From positions 1 to 58,741 of the forward strand of contig NZ_JACCPY010000028.1 of NCBI RefSeq assembly GCF_013426975.1: a stretch of 58,741 nucleotides of DNA, read 5' to 3'. Shown here in pieces: positions 22,655 to 26,968 of the stretch (position 1 is the stretch's first letter; each line of letters starts with the position of its first letter). The translations under genes were made by a program, and so were the position numbers. This stretch comes from Sphaerotilus sulfidivorans (lineage in GTDB: Bacteria > Pseudomonadota > Gammaproteobacteria > Burkholderiales > Burkholderiaceae_C). The notes below the pieces were generated by a model that worked only from the letters and a program-made list of their open reading frames with translations, was not told where the DNA came from and ran no database searches.

Positions 22655-22694
22655 CGGTCACGCCACGATCACGTCCCGATCACGCCGGCGTCAT
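22655..22694 (+). promoter_or_regulatory. Probable Pho box array upstream of lplT-agt
   Basis: Four direct repeats TCAC, TCAC, TCAC, TCAT start at 22658, 22669, 22680 and 22691, exactly 11 bp apart. Each unit resembles TCACGYCNCGA. PhoB boxes are 11-bp direct repeats with a TCA(C/T) core, so this is a strong candidate. After the last TCAT comes N6 and TGCCGACACT, and the GTG start of lplT is 23 bases further, implying a very short or absent leader. Confidence 0.75.
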
Positions 22695-22717
22695 GCCCGC
22701 TGCCGACACTCGGCCGG

Positions 22718-23935
22718 GTGACGACGTCGCTGCCCCTGCCCGCCGCCCTGCGCGGCTTCCGACTGCTGATGTCGGCCCAGTTCGTGTCCGGACTGGCCGA
22801 CAACGCGCTGCTGCTGGTGGCGATCGGCCGCCTCGCGGCCGAGGGCGGGCCGGTCTGGCTGCCGCCGCTGCTCAAGCTGGCGTTCACGCTGGCCTATGTG
22901 CTGCTGGCGCCCTTCGTCGGGCCGCTGGCCGACCGCGCGCCGAAGGCCGCGGTGATGAGCGCGGCCAATGCGCTCAAGGCCGGCGCCTGCGCCGCGATGG
23001 CGCTGGGCGCGCCGGTGGGCCCGTGCTTCGCGCTGGCCGGGGCCGGCGCGGCACTGTATTCGCCCGCCAAGTACGGTCTGGTCACCGAGCTGATGCCGCC
23101 GCACCGGCTGGTCGCCGCCAACGGCTGGATCGAGGTGGCCACCGTGCTGGCCGTGCTGTTGGGCACGATGCTGGGCGGCGCGCTGCTGGCCTGGCTGGCG
23201 CCGGCCACCGCACTGGCCGGCCTGCTGGCGCTCTACGGTCTGGCGGCGCTGCTGAACCTGGGCATTCCCGACAGCGGCGCGCGCTATCCGGCCGCGCCGC
23301 CGCTGGCCTGCCAGCTCGGCGACTTCGCGCGCGCCAACGCGCGGCTGTGGCGTGATCCGCTCGGGCGCGTCTCGCTGGCCACCACCACGCTGTTCTGGGG
23401 CGTCGGCGCCACGCTGCAGTTCCTGGTGCTGCGCTGGGCCGAGGAAGACCTCGGCCTGACGCTGGCGCAGGCCGCCTGGCTGCAGGGCCTGTCGGCCACT
23501 GGCGTGGTGGTCGGCGCGCTGCTGGCCGGGCGGCTGGTGCCGCTGGAGCGTGCGCCGCAGGTGCTGTGGCTGGGCGTGCCGATGGGCCTGCTGCTGCTGC
23601 CGATGCCGCACATCGACCACTGGCTGCCGGCGCTGCCGCTGCTGGCCTGCGCCGGCCTGGTCGCCGGGCTGTTCGTCGTGCCGATGAACGCGCTGCTGCA
23701 GCACCGCGGCGCCACGCTGCTCAGCGCCGGGCGCTCGATCGCGGTGCAGAACTTCAACGAGAACGCCAGCGTGCTGCTGATGCTGGCCGGCTACGCCTGG
23801 TTCAGTCGCCAGGACCTGCCGCTCGAGCTGCTGATCCGCGGCTTCGGTCTGGGCATCGCGCTGCTGATGGCGCTGATCGCGCTGCATCACCGGCACCACC
23901 ACCGGCAACCCCATCGCCACAAGGAGATCGCCTGA
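22718..23935 (+). CDS. lplT: Lysophospholipid transporter LplT
   Basis: The 405-residue membrane protein matches LplT of the major facilitator superfamily, which flips lysophospholipids such as lyso-PE across the inner membrane for reacylation. Family landmarks are MSAQFVSGLADNALLLVAIG in TM1, LLAPFVGPLADRAPKAAVM (TM2-3 loop), GAALYSPAKYGLVTELMPP, ANGWIEVATVLAVLLGTMLG, TLFWGVGATLQFLVLRW, FVVPMNALLQHRGA and SIAVQNFNENASVLLML. In E. coli lplT is fused in an operon with the acyltransferase gene aas; here no acyltransferase follows. The GTG start at 22718 is the only early one; the next in-frame ATG (22769) would cut into TM1. Its stop overlaps the glycosyltransferase start (TGATG), so the two are translationally coupled. 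Confidence 0.88.
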   Translation: MTTSLPLPAALRGFRLLMSAQFVSGLADNALLLVAIGRLAAEGGPVWLPPLLKLAFTLAYVLLAPFVGPLADRAPKAAVMSAANALKAGACAAMALGAPVGPCFALAGAGAALYSPAKYGLVTELMPPHRLVAANGWIEVATVLAVLLGTMLGGALLAWLAPATALAGLLALYGLAALLNLGIPDSGARYPAAPPLACQLGDFARANARLWRDPLGRVSLATTTLFWGVGATLQFLVLRWAEEDLGLTLAQAAWLQGLSATGVVVGALLAGRLVPLERAPQVLWLGVPMGLLLLPMPHIDHWLPALPLLACAGLVAGLFVVPMNALLQHRGATLLSAGRSIAVQNFNENASVLLMLAGYAWFSRQDLPLELLIRGFGLGIALLMALIALHHRHHHRQPHRHKEIA

Positions 23936-24972
23936 TGAGGATCGTCATCGTCACCGACGCCTGGGAGCCGCAGGTCAACGGCGTGGTGCGCACGCTGAAG
24001 ATGACCACGCACGAGCTCGGCCTGCTCGGCCACGAGGTGCACATCGTCTCGCCGCAGGGCTGGCCGAGCGTGCCCTGCCCGACCTATCCGGACATCCGCC
24101 TCGCCGCGGTGACGCCGCGCGGCATGGCGCGCCGGCTCGACGCGCTGCAGCCCGACTGCCTGCACATCGCCACCGAGGGCCCGCTGGGCTGGGCCGCACG
24201 TTCGGTGGCGCGCCGGCGCGGCTGGCCCTTCACCACCGCCTATCACAGCCGCTTCCCCGAATACCTACAGCTGCGCACCGGCCTGCCGGTGAACTGGAGC
24301 CACGCGCTGCTGCGCCGCTTCCACAACAGCGGCGTGGCCACGCTGGTGCCCACGCCGCACATGGGCGAGGAGCTGCGCCGCCACGGCTACCGGCACCCGG
24401 TGCACTGGAGCCGCGGCGTCAACCTGGAGATGTTCAGCCCGGACGGGCCGGTGCTGACGCGCCCGGCCGGCGGCAGCCCGGTCTTCCTGTACGTGGGCCG
24501 GCTGGCGGTCGAGAAGAACATCGACGCCTTCCTGCGGCTGGCGCTGCCCGGCGAGAAATGGGTCGCCGGCGCCGGCCCCGAGGCCGCGCGGCTGCGCCGC
24601 ACCTACGGCGACGGGGTGCGCTGGTTCGACGTGCTCTCCGGCCCGGACCTGGCGCAGCTCTACCGCAGCGCCGACGTGATGGTCTTCCCGAGCGAGACCG
24701 ACACCTTCGGCCTGGTGCTGATCGAGTCGATGGCCTGCGGCACGCCGGTGGCGGCGCTGCCGGCGACCGGTCCGATCGACGTGGTCGGCACCAGCGGCGA
24801 GGGCGGCGTGATCGACACCGACCTGAAGGCGGCCTGCCTGGCCGCGCTGCGCTGCGACCGCACGCGCGTGCGCGCCTTCGCCGAGCGCTACACCTGGGCG
24901 GCGGCGACGCGCCAGTTCGAGCAGGCGCTCCGACCGATCCCGCGGCCGGCCGCGCTGATCGCGGCGACCTGA
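23935..24972 (+). CDS. GT4-family glycosyltransferase, Agt/MgtA-like (probable diacylglycerol glycosyltransferase)
   Basis: The 345-residue protein is a GT-B, family 4 glycosyltransferase. The acceptor half begins MRIVIVTDAWEPQVNGVVRT and contains HIATEGPLGWAARSVARRRG and TAYHSRFPEYLQLR; the donor half has FLYVGRLAVEKNIDAFL, FPSETDTFGLVLIESMACG and PVAALPATGPIDVVG. This branch includes SQDG synthase, mycobacterial mannosyltransferases and the Agt enzymes that glycosylate diacylglycerol during phosphate starvation. Usual annotation would be GDP-mannose-dependent alpha-mannosyltransferase, but sugar donor cannot be read from sequence. Its start overlaps the lplT stop by one base, and it converges on the PlcP-like gene 31 bases away. 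Pairing with plcP is why a lipid acceptor is favoured. Confidence 0.8.
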   Translation: MRIVIVTDAWEPQVNGVVRTLKMTTHELGLLGHEVHIVSPQGWPSVPCPTYPDIRLAAVTPRGMARRLDALQPDCLHIATEGPLGWAARSVARRRGWPFTTAYHSRFPEYLQLRTGLPVNWSHALLRRFHNSGVATLVPTPHMGEELRRHGYRHPVHWSRGVNLEMFSPDGPVLTRPAGGSPVFLYVGRLAVEKNIDAFLRLALPGEKWVAGAGPEAARLRRTYGDGVRWFDVLSGPDLAQLYRSADVMVFPSETDTFGLVLIESMACGTPVAALPATGPIDVVGTSGEGGVIDTDLKAACLAALRCDRTRVRAFAERYTWAAATRQFEQALRPIPRPAALIAAT

Positions 24973-24978
24973 GCCCGG

Positions 24979-25016
24979 GGCCGGAGCCTGGGCCGGATCG
25001 GGCTCAGGCTCCGGCC
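24979..25016. terminator. Stem-loop between convergent agt and plcP genes
   Basis: GGCCGGAGCCTG (24979-24990) and CAGGCTCCGGCC (25005-25016) form a perfect 12-bp stem with a 14-nt loop. It spans the gap and the last codons of the plcP-like gene. No T-run follows on either strand, so it may be a bidirectional pause or RNA-end stabiliser rather than a classical intrinsic terminator. Confidence 0.6.
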
Positions 25017-25852
25017 GGCTGCGGCAGCGCCGCCATCGGCGAGCGGCGCGTGCGCCGGCGCATCGCCTCGGCCCAGTCGATGATCTCGAGCCGGCCGTCG
25101 GCATGCTCGACCAGCGCGGTCAGGCTCTCGACCCAGTCGCCGTCGTTGGCATAGGTCAGGCCGTCGACCACCCGCAGCTCGGCATGGTGGATGTGGCCGC
25201 AGACCACGCCGTCGACGCCGCGCCGGCGCGCCTCGCGGATCACCGCCAGCTCGAAGTCGTTGATGAAGCTGACCGCACGCTTGACCTTGAGCTTCAGGTA
25301 GCGCGAGAGCGACCAGTAGGGCAGCCCCAGGCGCGCGCGGGCCGAGTTCAGCATCCGGTTGAGCCGCAGCGCCAGCTGGTAGAGGCCGTCGCCGACATGG
25401 GCCAGCCAGCGCGCGCACTGGATCACGCCGTCGAACAGGTCGCCGTGCATCACCCAGAGCCGGCGGCCGTCGGCGGTCTGGTGGATGCAGTCCTCCACCA
25501 CCTCGATGCCGCCGAAGGCATGGCCGGCGTAGCGGCGCGCGAACTCGTCATGGTTGCCGGGCACGAAGATCACCCGCGTGCCCTTGCGCGCCTTGCGCAG
25601 CACCTTCTGCACCACGTCGTTGTGCGCCTGCGGCCAGAACCAGCGCCGCTGCAGCTGCCAGCCGTCGACGATGTCCCCGACCAGGTAGAGCGTCTCGCAC
25701 TCGACCGAGCGCAGGAAGTCGAGCAGCGCCTCGGCCTGGCAGCCGGACGTGCCCAGGTGCACGTCGGAAATGAACACGGTGCGGACCGACAGCGTCTCCT
25801 GCGGGAAGGCACTGTCCGGCGCCGCGGCGGCGGGGGCGGTGATGGCGTCCAT
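25004..25852 (-). CDS. plcP: PlcP-like metallophosphoesterase (probable phospholipase C of lipid remodelling)
   Basis: The 282-residue protein is a calcineurin-like phosphoesterase of the LpxH-related COG2908 group. Metal ligands are Asp30/His32 in FISDVHLG, Asp60 in LYLVGDIVDGWQ, Asn100-His101 in FVPGNHDE, a His in WVMHGDLFDG and GHIHH near residue 224. The segments RRWFWPQAHNDVVQKVLRKA, FGGIEVVEDCIHQTADGRR and YANDGDWVESLTALVEH match PlcP of rhizobia and marine bacteria more than true LpxH (about 240 residues). PlcP cleaves phospholipids to diacylglycerol and phosphoalcohol under phosphate limitation. It lies tail-to-tail with the Agt-like gene and has its own Pho-box-like repeats. An LpxH-type role in lipid A synthesis is the main alternative. 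Confidence 0.8.
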   Translation of the reverse strand: MDAITAPAAAAPDSAFPQETLSVRTVFISDVHLGTSGCQAEALLDFLRSVECETLYLVGDIVDGWQLQRRWFWPQAHNDVVQKVLRKARKGTRVIFVPGNHDEFARRYAGHAFGGIEVVEDCIHQTADGRRLWVMHGDLFDGVIQCARWLAHVGDGLYQLALRLNRMLNSARARLGLPYWSLSRYLKLKVKRAVSFINDFELAVIREARRRGVDGVVCGHIHHAELRVVDGLTYANDGDWVESLTALVEHADGRLEIIDWAEAMRRRTRRSPMAALPQPAGA

Positions 25853-25874
25853 GGCACCATCGTCGGCACCCGGG

Positions 25875-25911
25875 ATGACCCCCCGGTGAAGCGCGGGTGA
25901 CAGCGGCACGA
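25875..25911 (-). promoter_or_regulatory. Probable Pho box upstream of plcP
   Basis: Reading the minus strand, TCGT, TCAC, TCAC and TCAT begin at 25911, 25900, 25889 and 25878, each 11 bases apart; the second is within CTGTCAC, a near-perfect Pho half-site. After TCAT comes N6 and TGCCGACGAT, the same layout as upstream of lplT (TCAT-N6-TGCCGACACT), then the ATG 22 bases after the last repeat. Confidence 0.72.
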
Positions 25912-26000
25912 CGCGGTATCGGCACGACAAGCCCCTGTCATCGAGCCCCCGGACACTGACAGGCAGGACGCACGACGCCCACCCGAAGGAGCCCTCCGCG

Positions 26001-26537
26001 ATGATGCCGAACCCCGCCGACACCCCTGACGCCGACGATCTGCGCGCCGCACGCCTGCTGCAGCAGGCCCTGGCCCGTCCAGGCGAGATTCTCGAGATCG
26101 AGCCGTCCAGCCCGCCGCAGCCCGCCCGGCCCTTCGTGCGCCAGGGCACCGGCCGGCTGTCGCCGGCGATGAAGACGGTGCTGCAGGCCCTGTCCGGTCA
26201 TGCCGCGCCGCTGCGGCTGGCGCTGACCACCGCCGCCGAGGTCGACCCGGCGGTGTGGCAGACGCCGGCCGGCACGCCGGCGATGCTGCTGATCGAGGTG
26301 CCGGCGCTGCGCGACGGCCGCAGCGCCGAGCGCACCCGCGACGACGAGGATCCGGACCTCACGCCCTGCCTGTGCATCGACGGCACCCGTCACCTGAGCG
26401 TAGCCGGCATCGCGCGTCATTTCTGGCGGCGCCGGCCCGAGGCCGATCCGGCCGACCCGGGGGTCGATCTGGTGCTGTGCAGCGATCGCCGGCTGGTGGC
26501 GATCGGCCGGCAGTCGCGGGTCTGGCTCTGCAGCTGA
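26001..26537 (+). CDS. PhnH-like protein (phosphonate C-P lyase subunit family)
   Basis: The 178-residue protein looks like a divergent, slightly short PhnH (E. coli PhnH has 194 residues). Matching positions: LLQQALARPGEILEI with the family N-terminal RRLLKAMSEPG, LSPAMKTVLQALSGHAAPLRL with the TLADNDTPVWL region, VWQTPAGTPAMLLIEVPALRDG with FHTNAPL and LILQVASL, and GVDLVLCSDRRLVAIGRQSRVW with the C-terminal GIDLIL..RLLAIPRTT. PhnH is a structural subunit of the C-P lyase core complex. No other phn genes are in the window, so its role is unclear. AAGGAG lies 9 nt before ATG 26001. It diverges from plcP across 148 bases containing the Pho-box-like repeats, so phosphate control is plausible. 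Confidence 0.55.
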   Translation: MMPNPADTPDADDLRAARLLQQALARPGEILEIEPSSPPQPARPFVRQGTGRLSPAMKTVLQALSGHAAPLRLALTTAAEVDPAVWQTPAGTPAMLLIEVPALRDGRSAERTRDDEDPDLTPCLCIDGTRHLSVAGIARHFWRRRPEADPADPGVDLVLCSDRRLVAIGRQSRVWLCS

Positions 26538-26603: not shown

Positions 26604-26686
26604 CTGCGGCTACCATCGCGCCCCCCGGTGACAACCGGGCGACATCCGTCTAAAACAACGAATTCCTTAACGCTCGAGGAATGCCC

Positions 26687-26968
26687 ATGACCCACAGGAT
26701 CTTCCAGCGCACCGACCGGGGCCGTGCCGCCCTGCTCGAGGAGCAGGAACTGCCCGCCGAGGCCCTGCGCCTGCTGATGCGCCTCAACGGCTACACCCCC
26801 CTGGACCAGCTGCGCGGCCCGGACGAGGACCGGGCACAGGCACTGGCCGCCCTGACGCCGCTGCTGGAGGCGGGCCTGGCCGAGCCGGTCACGCCGAGCG
26901 CCCAGGCACCACGCCCCTCGGCCTGGAGCGACTGGTTCTCCGGCCAGCCGGTGGCGCTGCCGGCCTGA
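26687..26968 (+). CDS. Hypothetical small protein
   Basis: This 93-residue protein is not assigned to a function. It begins MTHRIFQRTDRGRAALLEEQ, which resembles the winged-helix-like N-termini of small Burkholderiales proteins (phrase: relapse of TDRGRAAL and LPAEALRLLMRLNGYTPLDQL), and ends in a Pro/Ser/Trp-rich tail. ATG 26687 is chosen over 26681 because GAGGA lies 6 nt upstream of it and directly abuts the earlier ATG. There are no cysteines and no membrane segment. It precedes trkA by 75 bases; a regulatory link is possible but unsupported. Confidence 0.55.
   Translation: MTHRIFQRTDRGRAALLEEQELPAEALRLLMRLNGYTPLDQLRGPDEDRAQALAALTPLLEAGLAEPVTPSAQAPRPSAWSDWFSGQPVALPA

Follow-up and report, generated by a model that had tools for sequence, protein, structure and literature searches.

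Membrane-lipid remodelling by a PlcP-like phosphoesterase and a glycosyltransferase of the GT4 family (Agt) has been described for Pseudomonas aeruginosa (PA3219/PA3218 and PA0842), for SAR11 and roseobacters, and for Methylosinus trichosporium, with Pho boxes at the plcP clusters of Pseudomonas and marine bacteria (PMC8528852, PMC4796936, PMC9239053; here and below, papers are cited for their accessible portions). Those portions mention no LplT-type transporter, and the text of PMC9239053 holds no word beginning with 'flipp'. Two lipid transporters of the major facilitator superfamily (MFS) serve as further points of comparison: LplT of E. coli, a lysophospholipid flippase that couples physically with the acyltransferase Aas (PMC11416262), and LtaA of Staphylococcus aureus, the known MFS transporter of a glycosyl-diacylglycerol (gentiobiosyl-DAG; PMC8866510). 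The locus described here lies at positions 22,655 to 26,537 of a 58,741-nucleotide stretch of DNA from the freshwater bacterium Sphaerotilus sulfidivorans (the window; contig C66 of genome G000, which comprises 4.39 Mb over 126 contigs) and holds an LplT-family paralogue, hereafter LplT2, next to Agt- and PlcP-like genes. LplT2 is a second clade of the LplT family that is distinct from the housekeeping LplT (LplT1), and it is what is new in this cassette. An original prediction made from the window alone had read the range as a PhoB-controlled remodelling cassette of lplT, agt and plcP with a PhnH-like gene; all four genes lie where it had placed them, and the range spans all of them.

22658..22694, + strand: Pho-box-like array before lplT2; four exact TCAYN7 units, one every 11 bp, with 23 nt between the array and the GTG start (score 13.5, z 4.8)
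22718..23935, + strand: lplT2, MFS lipid transporter, LplT-family paralogue (NCBIfam LplT model NF008397, 456.7 bits against a cut-off of 297)
23935..24972, + strand: agt, a GT4 glycosyltransferase similar to the GTcp/Agt group that glycosylates DAG (Pfam GT4 domains; His104/Asp256; TGATG overlap with lplT2)
24979..25016, no strand: inverted repeat of two 19-nt arms (89%) where the convergent units meet, overlapping the plcP 3' end
25004..25852, - strand: plcP-like gene for a calcineurin-type phosphoesterase, a candidate lipid-remodelling phospholipase C (PF00149, 52.6 bits)
25875..25911, - strand: Pho-box-like array before plcP; three exact TCAY units (25875-25900) and one further unit carrying a single mismatch, with 22 nt between the array and the ATG (score 14.0, z 5.6, locus L058)
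26001..26537, + strand: PhnH-like gene with a weak C-terminal PhnH match, divergent from plcP and sharing the intergenic region with it

Like the described PlcP-Agt systems, the window combines a PlcP-like phosphoesterase with a GT4 Agt. It differs from them in that plcP is convergent with agt rather than part of one operon, and in that an LplT paralogue overlaps agt: the lplT2 stop and the agt start share one base, and because TGATG holds both, the two genes are probably translated together. The inverted repeat between the convergent units is a possible bidirectional terminator.

The window protein passes the LplT family model and lies outside the classical LplT clade. A different gene, G000:C60:35589-36824, is the housekeeping copy of this genome, which rules out that role for the window gene; LplT2 is 45% identical to this LplT1 and 39% identical to E. 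coli LplT. In a tree of 111 rows, built with a quick method, drawn with a midpoint root and leaving out titled LplT matches below 900 bases, LplT2 comprises the 48 rows on one side of a branch with an SH-aLRT support of 98. These are 29 copies linked to Agt, 18 linked to a second GT4 branch (GT4B), and one linked to a Ugd-type dehydrogenase.

The gene neighbourhood of LplT2 was evaluated in 120 genomes of the window's family, 107 of which had an LplT over the cut-off. In 27 genomes, a copy above 520 bits was accompanied by a second copy of 395-515 bits, and all 27 neighbourhoods of these second copies were examined; an LplT2-like fragment below the cut-off (G104:C416, 277 bits) was left out. 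Gene picks by codon position served for orientation and for the choice of reference proteins, which were then checked by hmmscan, and the neighbourhoods were read by tblastn with these proteins at 1e-8. For comparison, 21 LplT1 loci of the 107 genomes, mostly the best scoring, were read over stretches of 8.5-10.4 kb. A GT4 gene directly adjoined 24 of the 27 second copies (7 Agt, 17 GT4B) and none of the 21 LplT1 copies, whose loci gave no match to any remodelling reference gene at 1e-8. The remaining three second copies had GT4B 7.4 kb away (L118), a Ugd-type dehydrogenase beside them (L093), or an OlsB-like acyltransferase beside them (L091). Fisher's test for 25/27 versus 0/21 gave 1e-11, with relatedness ignored. 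The tree placed 26 of the 27 second copies inside the LplT2 clade, while the OlsB-linked copy fell among the others on a long branch (L091:4128-6278 of G109, where LplT adjoins an OlsB-like N-acyltransferase). The extra cassette member noted in the original prediction thus turned out to be real and conserved, and to belong to a distinct paralogue clade that is tied to glycosyltransferases.

The gene order also recurs outside the window. The closest titled match to the window agt was Sphaerotilus natans ATCC 13338 (97% identity; the window's own genome may be absent from the records compared), and S. natans locus L148 shows the order of the window, namely acyl-CoA dehydrogenase, lplT2, agt, plcP and PhnH-like gene, at 96-98% identity. 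The trio lplT2-agt-plcP is likewise present in a same-genus genome (G058, locus L108), so that a cassette special to one strain is ruled out. Pairs of lplT2 and agt were also found in Methylibium, Ottowia, Pseudacidovorax and Aquariibacter loci. Among 30 such pairs, which include the same or nearly the same genomes more than once (L110/L152, L112/L167, L109/L153, window/L148), an overlap of exactly 4 nt (ATGA) is seen in 19 and one of 1 nt in the window and S. natans pairs. Spacings in the remaining nine run from -23 to +281, and the lowest two of these probably reflect uncertain starts.

Beyond the family, an order-wide list contained an LplT match in 204 of 250 genomes, and 40 LplT loci from 39 genomes of other families, taken from the upper part of the list and not strictly its top 40, gave no match to the remodelling reference genes. 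By my own count, 35 other-family genomes had two LplT matches. In the 15 of these that were looked at, the lower-scoring copies were mostly of E. coli type (14 rows), and the sole LplT adjoining a GT4B was found in G194 of family f32 (L284, around G194:C1:812187-813455). A class-wide draw of 274 genomes yielded only three 'same class' genomes passing 1e-100, at 361-373 bits versus 553 for the window copy. With these strict thresholds and partial draws, LplT2 looks like a Burkholderiales invention.

The original prediction further held that 11-bp TCAY repeats precede both converging transcription units, and this was confirmed, with four exact units before lplT2 and three exact units plus a one-mismatch unit before plcP. 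The Pho-box consensus is described as 11-bp direct repeats of the CTGTCAT type (PMC8528852); repeats of this type stand before both genes, and PhoB sites are predicted there. Because the arrays end only 23 nt (lplT2) and 22 nt (plcP) before the start codons, I infer a very short leader for both transcripts. An exact search for three TCAYN7 units, carried out on the window and the whole genome with the reversed pattern as a control, gave three matches in the window, where 0.01 would be expected and none of 100 shuffles reached three, and nine overlapping matches at five places genome-wide, two of which are the lplT2 and plcP promoters; the reversed pattern had no match in the genome. Inspection of the other three places by eye revealed no evident Pho promoters or genes, and the exact search was hence unproductive for locating the rest of the Pho regulon. 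One of the three lies between apparent rpsL and rpsG genes. At another, G000:C101:83569-83627, six TCAC units form an 11-bp tandem array which, by eye, follows the end of a SET-domain-like gene and precedes a convergent AMP-ligase-like gene; it resembles a small tandem repeat more than a promoter.

Scoring arrays across genomes enabled a comparison of promoters. Three CTGTCAY units at 11-bp spacing were scored over 300 nt upstream, each stretch being compared with 60 dinucleotide shuffles and passing at p<0.05. The samples were the family loci, the titled loci (80 loci retrieved by searching with seven aligned Agt sequences linked to LplT2; some genomes are in both samples) and, for plcP, the best 30 of 87 family matches, while 80 of 83 other open reading frames (ORFs), picked by codon position, served as a baseline. 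Within the family, arrays stood before 16 of the 27 second lplT copies (mean z 2.70; 14 of 16 in forward direction) versus 0 of 21 LplT1 copies (mean z -0.04) and 8 of 80 baseline ORFs (mean z -0.06). The titled loci gave a similar picture, with arrays before 14 of 22 lplT2 genes, all 14 forward, and before 32 of 43 PlcP genes; among the best 30 family plcP matches, 22 had an array (mean z 3.50), each of them forward. Other genes preceded by arrays in the family loci were GT4B (13/18), the divergent M203 (13/17), Ugd (5/8), AT3 (3/14) and OlsB (1/2), and in the titled loci Ugd (10/16), AT3 (8/8), OlsB (6/20), M203 (1/4) and GT4B (1/2). Agt, which is second in its unit in the family loci, had none there (0/8) and 7 of 82 in the titled loci. 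In the window genome itself, the upstream stretch of pstS barely passed (p 0.049), and two hits of the PhoB model exceeded its cut-off, one of them 3.6 kb from pstS.

These counts bear on a sceptical explanation, in which chance or common history made these genes neighbours, the lplT paralogue serves the envelope in another way, and repeats of this kind occur in GC-rich promoters generally. The frequency of Agt without LplT2 and the baseline ORFs that pass the array test would fit it, but against it stand the contrast between second copies and LplT1 in both GT4 adjacency (24/27 versus 0/21) and arrays (16/27 versus 0/21), as well as the recurrent gene overlap and the repetition of the pairing across the four further genera named above. 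I consider this explanation improbable.

The glycosyltransferase was compared with the DAG-glycosylating GTcp of Pelagibacter, which is characterised by a His104/Asp256 dyad and two UDP-sugar motifs (PMC8231724). The window Agt has the same dyad, with GRLAVEKN in place of the GTcp motif GRVAXEKN (Leu for Val) and FPSETDTFG matching FPSXTDTFG; its Asp256 stands at the Glu position of MshA. Across Agt rows, His104 was conserved in 92 of 92 and Asp256 in 88 of 92, the other four having Glu. The window GT4 therefore resembles the DAG-glycosylating GTcp/Agt group, and formation of MGDG or GADG from DAG is predicted. In GT4B, the Asp256 column is occupied by Glu in 18 of 20 rows and the His104 column by Arg in 19 of 20. 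Because the two branches differ at both columns and are separated by long branches in the GT4 tree (matches below 750 bases left out), where they stand far apart, one LplT2 clade goes with two different branches of GT4.

The phosphoesterase scored 44.7 and 41.7 bits against LpxH models with cut-offs of 134 and 190.35, respectively. It carries the motifs D30xH32, GD59xxD63, GNHD (99-102) and GHIH (219-222), which I take to be the calcineurin-type metal-binding set (DxH, GDxxD, GNHD, GHxH). In a tree that left out matches below 650 bases and held at most 25 titled PlcP rows, 55 PlcP rows were separated from four LpxH rows with a support of 100/100, the LpxH branches being long. A phosphoesterase inside true LpxH would have spoken against the original prediction, and it falls outside. 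The genome has a better LpxH candidate on contig C79, an LpxH-like gene with 169.2 bits versus 41.8 for the window phosphoesterase, although itself below the curated cut-off of 190.35. If the phosphoesterase were nevertheless a second LpxH enzyme of lipid A synthesis, the GT4 might act on lipopolysaccharide or other glycans instead of DAG. The solved structures that it matches are indeed LpxH chains (8 sequences, the strongest at E 1.7e-5), but the sub-cut-off scores, the tree, the C79 gene and the GTcp-type Asp256 of Agt all point the other way; LpxH identity is rejected, and this alternative as a whole is highly improbable. The gene is accordingly treated as a candidate plcP, linked to a DAG-type glycosyltransferase and preceded by a Pho-box-like array (which is the case for only 2 of 7 plcP genes within LplT2 loci), whose product is predicted to hydrolyse phosphatidylglycerol (PG) or phosphatidylethanolamine (PE) to DAG.

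The pairing of plcP with agt is ordinary for the group. Window PlcP had matches in 87 of 120 family genomes (E <= 1e-20) and window Agt in 50 of 120 (E <= 1e-40). Directly before the matched Agt (same strand, within 500 nt upstream), the 80 titled loci had PlcP in 37 cases, LplT2 in 23, another Agt in one, and no reference gene in 19; two of these 19 (L149, L163) begin at the end of the locus, and 12 of the 19, along with others, were inspected by eye. Methylotenera, moreover, is a betaproteobacterium. Its plcP transcripts have been reported (PMC9239053). Because PlcP and Agt matches are this widespread and plcP so often precedes Agt, the pair is known and common in Burkholderiales, and the original claim of novelty in a betaproteobacterium fails for plcP-agt. 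The transporter, on the other hand, is more interesting than that prediction could tell.

The following sequence of events is proposed. When phosphate is scarce, PhoB would bind the 11-bp arrays and switch on plcP and the coupled lplT2-agt unit. On the cytoplasmic side, PlcP would cleave the head groups off phospholipids, which would release phosphate esters and yield DAG, and Agt would attach a sugar, either glucose or glucuronic acid, to the DAG. Produced along with Agt, LplT2 would carry lipid from one side of the inner membrane to the other and thereby extend the exchange to both leaflets. A PlcP-Agt type remodelling cassette with Pho-box-like promoters, as originally predicted, is supported, and a remodelling cassette under PhoB control is very likely. 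That LplT2 acts as the lipid-translocating partner of this cassette is likely, and the reading as a whole, a PhoB-controlled exchange of phospholipid for glycolipid with a flippase coupled to the glycosyltransferase, is moderately likely. From the position and coupling of LplT2, I infer that it moves the product or the substrate of its glycosyltransferase, the direction of transport being putative; the glycolipid made by the neighbouring glycosyltransferase is the preferred substrate, and this preference is a tentative one.

The main competitor of a glycolipid substrate is the ancestral one. Asp28 of the window LplT2 occupies the alignment column of Asp30 in the E. coli protein, where the change D30N abolishes transport (PMC11416262), and this column is Asp in 47 of 47 LplT2 rows and in all 61 others. 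LplT2 thus shares with E. coli LplT the MFS family, the critical Asp and the coupling to a lipid-modifying enzyme, and scores well above the LplT cut-off; the E. coli protein moves lysophospholipids (PMC11416262). Under phosphate starvation, LplT2 could accordingly flip lysophospholipids, produced by the outer-membrane phospholipase A or scavenged from outside the cell, inward to be re-used or broken down for phosphate, its link to agt reflecting shared timing rather than a shared substrate. The two transporters differ in clade, in the Pho-box-like promoter of LplT2, and in partner. A search for E. coli Aas confined to the 27 second-copy loci and the 21 LplT1 loci gave no match at 1e-8, whereas Aas stood in the 1.5-kb flanks of 8 of the 14 E. 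coli-type second copies in other families. The stable neighbour of LplT2 is a GT4 of either branch rather than an acyltransferase, and it is not always PlcP; the genome also has a housekeeping LplT. Near LplT2, the glycosyltransferase appears to take the place of Aas. Retention of the lysophospholipid activity is therefore rather unlikely.

The glycolipid reading can be made more specific: LplT2 would be a dedicated, phosphate-regulated flippase for the glycolipids of its partner, a Gram-negative counterpart of LtaA that evolved in Burkholderiales from LplT by swapping the acyltransferase partner for two GT4 branches. I put this forward as a speculative proposal. Its likeness to LtaA would be one of function, as an MFS lipid transporter serving glycosyl-DAG; LtaA is Gram-positive and works for lipoteichoic acid, not for phosphate saving, and a search of solved structures with LplT2 gave no sequence match to LtaA, only NorA (E 5e-4). 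The predicted LplT2 model (mean pLDDT 90.3) confirms a helical MFS fold and favours neither substrate.

Several observations weigh against the proposed reading as a whole. In the fold search with the LplT2 model, the matches were general MFS proteins, and LtaA was not among the 50 of 718 that were listed. Only six columns, fixed at >80% in each group and conservative in nature, distinguish LplT1 from LplT2. Because 57 of the 80 titled Agt loci have no lplT2 directly upstream, LplT2 is not strictly needed by Agt. As to the promoters, I devised the array score and chose its weights with the window in view; the test failed upstream of 11 of 27 second lplT copies in the family and 8 of 22 in the titled loci, and arrays are scarce before plcP within LplT2 loci (2/7). 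The plcP of the same-genus G058 (L059) had no array (p 0.90), its upstream stretch being shifted because the match begins at residue 18. No expression or lipid data for Sphaerotilus under phosphate starvation were found in the open-licence literature. To my knowledge, no LplT is known to move a glycolipid.

The same literature contained no relevant paper that ties LplT to PlcP, PhoB, phosphate starvation or glycosyltransferase clusters, most subscription journals being outside its scope, and nothing on LplT as a glycolipid flippase under phosphate limitation appeared in open-licence titles and the beginnings of abstracts. I know of no solved route by which glycolipids of the cytoplasmic face reach the other leaflet, or by which outer-leaflet phospholipids reach PlcP, and a clade that is nearly always beside a GT4, has Pho-box-like control and frequently overlaps its partner's frame is a concrete candidate for this crossing. 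If the flippase reading is true, a repair flippase was re-used through a change of partner. In Burkholderia, LplT is essential in transposon sequencing (Tn-seq) for reasons described as not understood (PMC5729917).

The PhnH-like gene does diverge from plcP, as originally predicted, but its standing as PhnH or as a cassette member was lost. The Pfam match is weak and C-terminal only (31.3 bits versus a cut-off of 25, residues 126-174), TIGR03292 (PhnH) scored 29.5 bits versus a cut-off of 91.5, and PhnJ was not found in the window genome, which together rule out a PhnH/C-P lyase role. Near the cassette (E <= 1e-8), the gene was found in only the near-identical Sphaerotilus-type loci L148 and L149 among the 80, and there was none in the same-genus locus L108. 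It is probably incidental rather than a functional member of the cassette. A 95 aa ORF at 26681-26968, between the PhnH-like gene and trkA, had no family match over the cut-off. In L108, a PAP2-family phosphatase (L108:1966-3072) lies ~1 kb from plcP.

Islands of a different composition surround GT4B-linked copies of lplT2. In G091 (L117:1589-12663), a class III aminotransferase, a 203 aa Mpo1-like membrane protein, GT4B and lplT2 lie together, and similar islands occur in L088, L115, L116, L118 and L123-L127. The aminotransferase has ~550 aa and is GSA-like, below its cut-offs, and the Mpo1-like protein is just under the Pfam cut-off; some islands add a UDP-glucose dehydrogenase, and L117 and L118 add a GT28. 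Arrays precede 13 of 18 GT4B genes. The islands may encode a phosphorus-free lipid pathway that has yet to be described. In G133 (L286), an aminotransferase like that of the islands, at 64% over the portion that the locus contains, lies near an E. coli-type LplT. Finally, L193:5736-12264 joins genes of glycolipid and ornithine-lipid type in one island, which holds lplT2-agt, Ugd, an OlsB-like gene, plcP and a second agt.

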